Shown piece by piece: positions 30,154 to 34,542 of a stretch of 34,716 nucleotides of DNA (position 1 is the stretch's first letter; the number at the start of each line of letters is the position of its first letter). This DNA comes from Planctomycetales bacterium (GTDB lineage: Bacteria > Omnitrophota > Gorgyraeia > Zapsychrales > Zapsychraceae). The translations under genes were made by a program, and so were the position numbers. The notes beneath the pieces are model-generated. The model saw only the letters and a program-made list of their open reading frames with translations. It was not told the origin of the DNA and did no database searches. Location: NCBI GenBank assembly GCA_005239675.1, contig SBBO01000002.1, forward strand, positions 1 to 34,716. Reading direction: 5' to 3'.

Positions 30154-31134
30154 TTAAATGGATTGAACATGGCACGCCTCTTGAGTCATAAATTCATGTA
30201 GACAGTCGATAATCTGATTTAGATCCATGAGTTGCATTAATTCCTGACGGAGCTGATGGATATGAGGTATTCCTTTCAAATAGGCAGCATAGTATTTGCG
30301 AAAAGAGATAATGCTATGAGGCGCCCCGTTATGGTGTGCGAAGAGTCTTAAGTGTTCGATGCATCGATTAATCCGTTCGTTGAGGGTGGGGGGAGATAAA
30401 TGGCATCTGGTTGTAAGGTAATGTTTGGCCTGACAGAAAATCCAAGGGTTGCTTATTGCGCCCCGGCCGATCATCACCCCATCGCAGCCGATAGCGAACA
30501 GTTGCTCGACATCTTCAGGGGTGGCGACATCTCCGTTGCCGATCACGGGAATTTCGACCGCTTTTTTTATTTTTTCCAGCCACTGCCAATCCGCCTTGCC
30601 GCTGTGGGCTTGGCTACGCGTTCGACAATGGATAGCAATCGCCTTGGCACCGGCCCCTTCGACCATGCGCGCGACATCCTCAATGATAATGCTGTCGGTA
30701 TCCCATCCCAGTCGTGTCTTGACAGTGACTGGCAGGCGGGTTGCCTTGACTGTTGCGGTCACGATTTTTTCAAAACGGGGCAGATCTTTCAGAAGCGCTG
30801 CCCCGCACCCATGGGCAACAATGTTTTTAACCCAGCAGCCGCAGTTGATGTCGATAAAATCCGGCTCTAAGCCCTCTGCGCGCCCTGCGGCCTGGGACAT
30901 CGAATCCTCGCTGCCGCCAAAGAGCTGAATGGCAATAGGACGCTCTGCTTGAGTAATTTTAATTTTATCTAGGGCCTTGTGGCTGTCGCGGATAATGGCA
31001 TCACTACTGGTAAACTCCGTGTAGACGATATCGGCCCCTAGCCGTTTGCAGATTATGCGAAAAGCGGTGTCGGTGACATCCTCCATGGGCGCTAGGATGA
31101 CAGGTTTATCGATATCGATGGTGCCAATTTTCAT
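30154..31134 (-). CDS. dusB: tRNA-dihydrouridine synthase (DusB-like)
   Basis: A flavin enzyme that reduces specific uridines in tRNA. The 326-residue TIM barrel opens with PVILAPMEDVTDTAFR, then VYTEFTSSDAI, IQLFGG, the catalytic-Cys region DINCGCWVKNIVAHGCGAALL (Cys100), VTVKTRLGW, IHCRTRSQAHSG, IGNGDV and GCDGVMIGRGAISNPW. The usual GCP is GCW here, an odd change right after the catalytic Cys. The start at 31134 (MKIGTIDI) rather than 31155 is set by its promoter: TATAAT followed by 7 nt, which predicts a start 1 nt before this ATG. It heads a four-gene operon. Confidence 0.93.
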   Translation of the reverse strand: MKIGTIDIDKPVILAPMEDVTDTAFRIICKRLGADIVYTEFTSSDAIIRDSHKALDKIKITQAERPIAIQLFGGSEDSMSQAAGRAEGLEPDFIDINCGCWVKNIVAHGCGAALLKDLPRFEKIVTATVKATRLPVTVKTRLGWDTDSIIIEDVARMVEGAGAKAIAIHCRTRSQAHSGKADWQWLEKIKKAVEIPVIGNGDVATPEDVEQLFAIGCDGVMIGRGAISNPWIFCQAKHYLTTRCHLSPPTLNERINRCIEHLRLFAHHNGAPHSIISFRKYYAAYLKGIPHIHQLRQELMQLMDLNQIIDCLHEFMTQEACHVQSI

Positions 31135-31141
31135 TGACAGG

Positions 31142-31169
31142 ATTATATACGACATACACGGTAAATCAA
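31142..31169 (-). promoter_or_regulatory. Promoter of the dusB operon
   Basis: On the minus strand TTGATT (31169-31164), a 16-bp spacer and a perfect TATAAT (31147-31142). The predicted start at 31135 is 1 nt before the ATG at 31134, so dusB should be leaderless. Confidence 0.8.
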
Positions 31170-31175
31170 TTGATT
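31164..31175. promoter_or_regulatory. 12-bp palindrome forming both divergent -35 boxes
   Basis: AATCAATTGATT is a perfect palindrome. Read on the minus strand its half is the -35 (TTGATT) of dusB, and read on the plus strand its other half is the -35 of the divergent promoter at 31170-31198. It may simply be abutting -35 boxes or a shared regulator site. Confidence 0.6.
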
Positions 31176-31198
31176 TTTCTGTGTTCCATCAGTATACT
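31170..31198 (+). promoter_or_regulatory. Divergent promoter toward the TrpD2-like gene
   Basis: TTGATT (31170-31175), a 17-bp spacer and TATACT (31193-31198). The predicted start at 31205 is 1 nt before an ATG at 31206 that opens a 41-codon frame, and about 193 nt before the TrpD2-like ATG. Confidence 0.65.
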
Positions 31199-31205
31199 TA
31201 AAAAA

Positions 31206-31331
31206 ATGACCTGCGTTGTTGCTGGGCACACCATTGCGGTGAATAAACCTTTACTGATCAGATTCACCATCGTTGTCAATGCCAAGTTTCTGAAGCGGAC
31301 TTCAAGGGCAAACGAAGGAATTTGGCATTGA
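31206..31331 (+). CDS. Possible leaderless 41-residue small ORF
   Basis: An ATG placed 1 nt after the start predicted from the divergent promoter opens a 41-codon frame (MTCVVAGHTIAVNKPLLIRF..., ending NEGIWH). I do not recognise the product. It has a short hydrophobic part and a basic end. Its second half lies within a long inverted repeat, and its TGA stop (31329-31331) falls in the right arm. It could be a leader peptide that controls the TrpD2-like gene 66 bp later, a real small protein, or chance in a structured RNA leader. Confidence 0.4.
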   Translation: MTCVVAGHTIAVNKPLLIRFTIVVNAKFLKRTSRANEGIWH

Positions 31332-31390
31332 CCGGTTATCTTTTGTTCTTAGGTCGCAGGCTCATCGTTCCTCTGACCCAGGGACCTTAG
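31238..31390 (+). ncRNA. Structured RNA leader before the TrpD2-like gene (candidate)
   Basis: Inverted repeats follow one another on the predicted transcript: GGTGAAT/ATTCACC (31238-31244 with 31262-31268); GTCAATGCCAAGTT with AATTTGGCATTGAC (31275-31288 with 31319-31332, one G-U pair) enclosing TGAAG-CGGA-CTTCA (31291-31304); and AGGTC/GACCT (31351-31355 with 31383-31387) next to the TrpD2-like start. No known riboswitch was recognised. Confidence 0.45.
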
Positions 31391-31397
31391 AGATAAT

Positions 31398-32672
31398 ATG
31401 ACGAGCATTAATTTTTTATCCACGGCCATTGCTGAGGGTATCAAGGCCGTAGGGATTGGCAAGAGGGGAAGCAAGGCCTTGACCCCCGAATTGGTTCAGG
31501 CTATTGTCCTTGAGTTAAAGGCAGGCCATGTCCCCGCGGTCGTCCAAGGCGCGTTTTTTGGTGGATTAATCACTAAAGGGGTAAGTCCAACGGAAATGGC
31601 ATTGGAGGAGGCCCTAGCGCCTGGGATTTTGAATAATTTTTCAGGATTGGTGAATTATCTTGCCGGTGATGCGCCAGCGCCGATTCAGGAGATGTGCGTG
31701 CGCTTGCTGCGTCAGGAGATGTTGGATGAAAGGGACGCGAAGAGATTAGGTGATTTTTTATTCTCGGTGCATCCAGGCGACGGCGCACGGGGATTGGCAG
31801 CAGCTATCATGCGCGTTCGCTATGAAACAACCGAAGAATACGTGGGGATTCTACGTAGTATCCAAGAGACGATCGACTCACCCTTTCGCGAACCGGTACC
31901 ATTAGGCGAACCTATTGTGCAGATCGCAGAACCGTTTGATGGGGTAGACCATTCGTATATGGTGACTCCTTTGCTGGCGCGCCATATTCAAGGGCAAGGC
32001 TTCCGAGCGGTCAGTCTTGTTGGACGCAACAGTGGCCCCAAGCGTGGCAATAATTTGTTGGATTTAATCAACGCCCTGGGAGGGACTTTCCTTGAAGGTA
32101 ACAAGGGCCTGGGCGCCGCAAAACCAATTTTGGGTTGGTATATCCATCAGCAAAATATGTCGCCAGCACTCGACCGTTGGGTTGAATTACGTCGGCAGAT
32201 CATCAAGCGCCCATTTTTATCTACGCTGGAGCGGTTGGTGAATCCAGTCGGGACCGATATCCTCATCGCATCGGCCTTTCATCCGCCCTATGGCGAAAAG
32301 ATGCTTACGGTATCCGAGCGCTTTGGGTATCCGGGTATCGTTATCGTGCGTAACGGTCTGGAAGGGACACTGGCATTCCCGCTGAAGCGTAGCGTCAAGG
32401 TGTTGTGTTCTGCCAGACAGCTGGATGGTCATTATGTGCGTCGGGAGATTGAATTTAGTCCAGAAGAATATTTGAATATCCGCGTTGACCTAGAAGAGAA
32501 ATTTGAGCAGCCTTCTTTGTCAGAGAATGTGCGGCTTATCAAGGCATATATAGAACAGGGGAGAACTAATTATCACTTGTTTGATTGGCGCGTTGAGGCG
32601 ACCTGCGCTGGCCTTGGTCGGGCTATGGGATGGATTAGAAACAGCTCATCGTTTATAGGGGATCGTCCTTAA
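31398..32672 (+). CDS. Anthranilate phosphoribosyltransferase-like protein (TrpD2/YbiB type)
   Basis: A 424-residue protein related to the glycosyl transferase family 3 fold. The N-terminal helical part (LTPELVQAIVLELKAGHVPAVVQGAFFGGLITKGVSP) looks like the TrpD small domain; later blocks include HSYMVTPLLARHI, LVGRNSGPKRGNNLLDLINALGG and RPFLSTLERLVNPVG. It lacks the standard TrpD phosphoribosyl-binding GTGGD motif, so it is unlikely to make tryptophan. E. coli YbiB (TrpD2) is a related nucleic-acid-binding protein, but this one is about 100 residues longer. There are no trp genes around. The start has no ribosome-binding site and follows a structured leader. Confidence 0.65.
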   Translation: MTSINFLSTAIAEGIKAVGIGKRGSKALTPELVQAIVLELKAGHVPAVVQGAFFGGLITKGVSPTEMALEEALAPGILNNFSGLVNYLAGDAPAPIQEMCVRLLRQEMLDERDAKRLGDFLFSVHPGDGARGLAAAIMRVRYETTEEYVGILRSIQETIDSPFREPVPLGEPIVQIAEPFDGVDHSYMVTPLLARHIQGQGFRAVSLVGRNSGPKRGNNLLDLINALGGTFLEGNKGLGAAKPILGWYIHQQNMSPALDRWVELRRQIIKRPFLSTLERLVNPVGTDILIASAFHPPYGEKMLTVSERFGYPGIVIVRNGLEGTLAFPLKRSVKVLCSARQLDGHYVRREIEFSPEEYLNIRVDLEEKFEQPSLSENVRLIKAYIEQGRTNYHLFDWRVEATCAGLGRAMGWIRNSSSFIGDRP

Positions 32673-34010: not shown

Positions 34011-34035
34011 GTGGAAGGACTAGGGAATATTGTCC

Positions 34036-34542
34036 ATGACAGAAGACCATAAAATCGATCGTGAAACATCTTCAATACCCATCTCCAGTGTTGGTAAACC
34101 AGGGCGTGTCTGTGTCACTTACGGGCGCGATGTCATCATGAATAGGCAGGTGGTGTCGCTTATCCGCGGCCTTGGCATTGAGCCGATTATCATGCAGGAC
34201 AAGGAATATGCCAAGAAACCGCTGATTGAATTCTCCGTCGCCTACCCGGATATCAACTTTGTCATTGTGATCCTCTCTGCTGATGACTGGGTTTATCCTA
34301 AAGACGGTAAGCCCAAAGAGGCAGTTTTACGTGCCGATCAAAAGATCGTTTTTCATCTGGGGTATTGGATCGGTAAGCTGGGGCGTGACCGCGTGTTTGT
34401 CCTTATTTACGACCAGCGCAGTTTTCGGTTGCCCACAGACTATTTAGACGCCATCTACACGCCGTTGGATAAGGAAGGGTTATGGAAAAAGGAGTTGCTA
34501 GAGCGGTTTGGGCGTATTGGATGGACCGTAAAACTTCCCTAA
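34036..34542 (+). CDS. TIR-like nucleotide-binding domain protein (PF10137 type)
   Basis: A 168-residue protein whose residues 25-168 follow the PF10137 TIR-like family found in CBASS/Pycsar effectors and other predicted NAD-cleaving proteins: VCVTYGRD, SLIRGLGIEPIIM, INFVIVILSADDW, a RADQKIVFHLGYWIGKLGRDRV block, LPTDYLDAIYTPLD, then W and LLERFGRIGW. In the family this block normally reads VFELGYFIGKLGR; here the Glu is His107. If that Glu is catalytic, the protein is inactive or altered. No sensor or nucleotide cyclase is adjacent, so a defence role is unsupported by context. The start at ATG 34036 is preferred over a TTG two codons earlier. Confidence 0.75.
   Translation: MTEDHKIDRETSSIPISSVGKPGRVCVTYGRDVIMNRQVVSLIRGLGIEPIIMQDKEYAKKPLIEFSVAYPDINFVIVILSADDWVYPKDGKPKEAVLRADQKIVFHLGYWIGKLGRDRVFVLIYDQRSFRLPTDYLDAIYTPLDKEGLWKKELLERFGRIGWTVKLP

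Follow-up and report, generated by a model that had tools for sequence, protein, structure and literature searches.

A short structured intergenic repeat, probably mobile, precedes the trpD2 gene of a member of Candidatus Omnitrophota

Among the described small repeats with which the element reported here can be compared, the Yersinia palindromic sequence YPAL/RU-2 is 168 bp long, carries internal inverted repeats and has recently been mobile; it has no terminal TA, is not A+T-rich and shows variable target duplications (PMC2229807). The enterobacterial repetitive intergenic consensus (ERIC/IRU) possesses terminal inverted repeats and a terminal TA, and the NEMIS/Correia elements possess terminal inverted repeats of 24 bp together with a terminal TA (PMC2229807). 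The BOX elements of Streptococcus pneumoniae are composed of modular structured blocks, with many copies in one species and few in its relatives (PMC3049150). We analysed a stretch of 34,716 nucleotides, referred to as the window, which comprises positions 1-34,716 of contig SBBO01000002.1 (assembly GCA_005239675.1; this genome is designated G000). With a probability that we put at about 0.8, the leader of its trpD2 gene arose when a mobile repeat was inserted before the gene; the copy there is degenerate, and the repeat, which is short, intergenic and non-coding, is confined to a small group of Omnitrophota.

The trpD2 gene is TrpD2/YbiB-like: its NCBIfam matches (YbiB/PRK07394, below the cut-off) and its PDB matches (1v8g and 7y3p) point to YbiB and anthranilate phosphoribosyltransferase. 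The likely promoter of the divergent neighbour, dusB, abuts the trpD2 promoter and faces away from it; in the minus-strand direction it is situated downstream of the element (Table 1). The hexamers of the trpD2 promoter and their spacing are identical in G004, which belongs to the same genus, and in G017 (L007), G032, G028 and others. The trpD2 homologue of another genome (L013/L024, G021:C62) is split by ~1.5 kb of DNA, a fragment that looks IS110-like by eye. Farther along the window, positions 34030-34542 of the plus strand encode a protein with a CAP12/Pycsar effector TIR domain (PF10137); it adjoins mtaB and is possibly a stand-alone nucleotide-sensing defence effector.

Table 1. Positions of the features at the trpD2 locus, numbered from the first letter of the window.
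Feature	Position	Strand	Basis or remark
dusB (tRNA-dihydrouridine synthase), divergent neighbour	30154..31155	-	Pfam Dus, TIGR00737
Likely dusB promoter, TTGATT-N16-TATAAT	31142..31169	-	Sequence; equivalent sequence in G004
trpD2 promoter, TTGATT-N17-TATACT	31170..31198	+	Conserved in relatives
ATGAC, left copy of the putative target duplication	31206..31210	+	Ancestral start-codon position, 7 nt past the -10 box
41-codon ORF	31206..31331	+	Opened at the first ATGAC copy
Inserted element, 187 bp	31211..31397	- (constrained RNA strand)	Absent from the G004 orthologue; ATGAC/ATGAC flanks; dispersed copies
Conserved core	31220..31358	-	Covariance model match, 94 bits
Basal helix extension	31266..31340	-	Sense GAUAACCG (31333-31340) with CGAUGGU (31266-31272)
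Long covarying stem	31275..31332 (arms 31275-31291, 31316-31332)	-	Covariation among copies
Third hairpin	31335..31397	+	Located where other copies have the upstream stem
TrpD2/YbiB-like gene	31398..32672	+	Starts with ATGAC, the right copy of the putative duplication

G004 shows conservation of the divergent dus gene, of the two promoters and of the trpD2 gene start, and it lacks the insert; its TATACT -10 box is followed by 7 nt and then by ATGAC, which provides the start codon. The window has the same succession of TATACT, 7 nt and ATGAC, after which come 187 bp containing hairpins and then a second ATGAC, the present start. Counted from this start to the conserved Ala-Ile residues, the N-terminal reading frame is as long as that of G004. 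Among the relatives in which the trpD2 promoter was recognised, the distance from the -10 box to the ATG is 7 nt in G004 and mostly 8-52 nt in the others, compared with 199 nt in the window. Most simply, these sequences are read as the insertion of 187 bp accompanied by a target duplication of 5 bp. A five-base match at the ends of the insert has a chance of ~1 in 1000, but the ATGAC/ATGAC pair, matched by the G004 site, is a single case. Eleven other copies had no target duplication at their ends and no direct repeat better than those in shuffled sequences, so that the duplication is only suggested. The ends of the insert (CTGCGTTG... and ...GAGATAAT) are not inverted repeats; since a search for terminal inverted repeats found none, the element is not classed as a MITE in the strict sense.

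A BLAST search with the insert matched its core repeatedly, both within the genus and in G020 (best E 4.9e-11), and a covariance model yielded 31 matches with E<1e-8 in nine genomes, 16 of these matches being in G001. When 384 genomes drawn from the phylum were searched, seven carried the element at E<=1e-4. An HMM built without the window copy (nhmmer) recovered that copy at 31348-31227 of the minus strand with E=1.9e-17. The family was found only in Candidatus Omnitrophota, in which the named relatives are MAGs, several of them from groundwater; collections of viral contigs, phages and plasmids contained no match to the element. Rfam gave no match for the window at the gathering threshold, and a permissive E-value applied to eight loci with canonical copies returned only two sub-threshold microRNA matches, both ascribed to chance. 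The copies, which were located by sequence search, are short, non-coding, multiple and intergenic, as in a small mobile intergenic repeat (MITE-like in the broad sense). The genes adjoining them are unrelated (Alginate_exp, SDF, holB, hisH, PadR, polyprenyl synthetase and sulphite reductase), for which reason a riboswitch of one pathway was rejected.

Several further matches deserve mention. The genome to which the window belongs has a truncated copy that lies between acyP and ligA (L003 1192-1245, G000:C46). In another family of the order, two inverted copies lie ~650 bp apart (L083 291-436 and 1082-1230, G080:C4) with a small ORF-bearing stretch between them, and at L060, L066 and L094 other small palindromic repeats are nested inside copies of the element. 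A weak match of the covariance model (L091, G000:C45:23167-23279) reads TTGACA-N17-TATAAA and was set aside as probably an ordinary promoter; the matches in G008 and G009 are probably due to chance.

Empty sites in close relatives were observed at four loci, namely trpD2, hisB-hisH, moeB and tmk-holB (the names moeB, tmk, hisB and hisH were read from translations and Pfam matches, not from curated annotation). G001 has the element at hisB-hisH, a site that is empty in G004 and G000, and at tmk-holB, which is empty in G000, G003 and G005. The leader of the moeB/ThiF-like gene contains the element in both G001 and G002, in opposite orientations, and is empty in G000, G004 and G005. At two loci the element sits between the -10 box and the start codon. 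The moeB leaders of G005 and G004 (L118 and L120, two species) have tandem TACGAGATACGAGATACG-type repeats upstream of moeB.

Read in the RNA sense, the element starts with an optional upstream stem and a spacer, followed by AAAGGUCACCGGUC, the variable covarying stem and GACAACGAUGGCGAAU; a variable stretch of ~10 bases separates these from AAAGGUUUAAUCGCCGG, and the tail stops near GGUUAUCCGUUA. The core measures ~130 bp and the element 187 bp in the window, rising to ~300 bp with the optional upstream stem, which occurs as two recurring sequence types in G001 and has an unrelated sequence in the window. Within the long stem, 50 cells were changed on both sides as opposed to 11.8 after shuffling, with a covariation score of 0.373 versus 0.187, and no slid register scored above 0.08. 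This alignment was fitted to the covariance model; the same double changes appear in the MAFFT alignments A1 and A2. In the basal helix extension, the window copy has A-U at a position held by G-C in other copies. In the minus-sense MAFFT alignment, the Watson-Crick pair cells include 24 GU versus 2 AC, and one pair is U-G in 19 of 19 copies. The sense-strand fold is of lower energy in 23 of 26 copies (Wilcoxon p=3e-6, an optimistic value since the copies are related). Because of the excess of GU over AC and these fold energies, we take the minus strand, antisense to trpD2 and running towards dusB, to be the conserved RNA strand. The window copy on its own folds better on the plus strand (z of -2.55 versus -1.34) and is degenerate. 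In many copies (L086, L092, L098, L100, L066, L087, L089 and L094), the core is preceded by a further repeat, AGGTTTAGCCATATTATCATTCGCTC...GAACTCGCTCGGTGATAATATGGCTAAACCT, whose outer stem likewise shows paired variation.

The initial annotation of this leader had described three hairpins, and all are present: a 7-bp hairpin (GGTGAAT/ATTCACC at 31238-31244 and 31262-31268, plus strand), a long inverted repeat with arms of 17 nt that are 88% complementary, and a third hairpin that ends right before the ATG at 31398. Folding of 31205-31400 with RNAfold, which it had recommended, gave -61.3 kcal/mol (z=-2.75), and only one of 200 dinucleotide shuffles was as good. Their conservation is uneven. 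The long repeat is conserved as a structure with strong covariation. The 7-bp hairpin was rejected as a conserved helix, since its 3' arm is free to vary in other copies (GCC, ACC or TCC) and its 5' arm is a constant GGC; at the place of the third hairpin, a stem is found in many copies but not all, and its sequence is unrelated. The ribosome-binding site reported as missing is indeed not apparent, with no clear Shine-Dalgarno sequence before trpD2, and this weakness or absence is considered ancestral because the leader is only 7 nt long in the closest relative. The small ORF proposed as a partner for an attenuator does exist; nevertheless, it runs from the first ATGAC into inserted DNA. Its start corresponds to the position of the trpD2 start in the same-genus relative, and no protein family matched it.

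The initial annotation had considered an undescribed cis-regulatory RNA, and a riboswitch or attenuator of trpD2 would be in keeping with the stable fold of the plus strand and with the third hairpin, which on the trpD2 mRNA covers the bases immediately preceding the start codon. This reading is largely refuted by the empty orthologous sites, in that G004 and other relatives retain the promoter and have no insert whose orientation could be conserved; moreover, covariation is seen only among dispersed copies that lie beside unrelated genes in both orientations, and wobble and fold asymmetry assign it to the minus strand and not to that of the mRNA. At the trpD2 locus the flanking genes are conserved and the arms are not, which is the pattern that the annotation itself had set against its proposal. 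What survives of that proposal is an undescribed, covarying structured element, while a function as leader RNA or attenuator of trpD2 is extremely improbable. Regulation might alternatively concern the gene downstream on the minus strand (dusB here, many others elsewhere), the element being a general 5'-UTR module that spreads by regulating. The next gene is codirectional with the sense RNA in ~16 of 21 copies, mildly above the half expected by chance in a tally of naive ORF calls with one ORF corrected by hand; it is often 10-60 nt away and, in several copies, preceded by a Shine-Dalgarno-like sequence. Against this, the primary dusB transcript should not contain the element because the likely dusB promoter lies beyond it, the adjoining genes share no pathway, the moeB copies of G001 and G002 are oppositely oriented, and several copies are convergent to or downstream of genes, which leaves such a module very unlikely.

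A palindromic repeat acting at the level of DNA (REPIN/IS200-605-like or another MITE), in which pairing would matter only as a single-stranded DNA hairpin during transposition, is compatible with dispersed, intergenic copies in both orientations and with empty sites, and Y1 transposases occur in six of the nine genomes. We nonetheless judge it rather unlikely: the excess of GU over AC on one strand and the universal U-G pair fit RNA better, terminal inverted repeats are lacking, and no Y1 transposase was found in G000, G004 and G080, although the MAGs are incomplete. No GTTRRRY-type core was evident when the element was compared by eye with integron attC sites and IS200/605 ends. The presumed selection of a folded RNA from one strand, the lack of terminal inverted repeats and the two landings between a -10 box and a start codon are our reasons for considering a bacterial element mobilised through RNA, short retro-like (SINE-like) or otherwise, whose RNA may be the mobile or targeting form; this we hold to be quite doubtful. 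A reverse transcriptase (RVT_1) is present in only two of the nine genomes, the MAGs being incomplete.

The most likely type of element is a MITE/ERIC/YPAL-like small mobile repeat whose transcript folds. It entered the trpD2 transcription unit at its very beginning, past the -10 box and ahead of the start codon, and ATGAC was probably duplicated in the process, so that the start codon was kept. Movement may depend on a transposase-like enzyme acting in trans, although no mobiliser was constant across the nine genomes, which are incomplete MAGs. Transcription in the element's own sense (minus in the window) would yield an RNA whose frame is constant and whose long stem drifts in sequence and keeps its pairing, and it is presumably this RNA form that selection sees. 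The insertion has turned an almost leaderless trpD2 into a gene with a ~190-nt hairpin leader and an upstream ORF; on its mRNA, the first ATG (31206) would open the 41-codon ORF, and the true start would stand directly behind the third hairpin. Owing to this hairpin leader and upstream ORF, translation of trpD2 is expected to be lowered or altered.

A limited search of the literature yielded no account of an element of this kind in Omnitrophota, and with the present family a phylum that has hardly been studied gains a covarying structured repeat not listed in Rfam. The moeB copies in two species demonstrate that one 5' leader can receive such an element in both orientations, and the trpD2 pair, with a 7-nt leader in one genome and a 199-nt hairpin leader plus upstream ORF in the other, offers a natural experiment on the consequences of such an insertion for a gene that had almost no leader. 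A word of caution also follows: a leader that folds well but is not conserved beyond one genome may represent an inserted repeat viewed on the wrong strand. Compared by description, YPAL/RU-2 is the closest known repeat in its size, its internal inverted repeats and its lack of terminal repeats, and the two also agree in not being A+T-rich and in their recent mobility, whereas the Omnitrophota element differs in its host, its long, freely drifting covarying stems and its optional upstream stem modules. Unlike ERIC/IRU, it shows no terminal inverted repeats or terminal TA, and the 24-bp terminal inverted repeats and terminal TA of NEMIS/Correia were not seen either; it is similar to ERIC/IRU as a short intergenic repeat that is transcribed with neighbouring genes and folds into stem-loops, and to NEMIS/Correia in inserting near genes, whose mRNAs such elements can join (PMC2229807). 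The termini of BOX elements pair together (PMC3049150), whereas in the present element the conserved helix lies in the interior and the ends were not seen to pair, and the hosts are unrelated. Like BOX elements, the Omnitrophota element consists of modular structured blocks that are abundant in one species and few in its relatives, and it is in their spread and modular stems that both ERIC and BOX resemble it.
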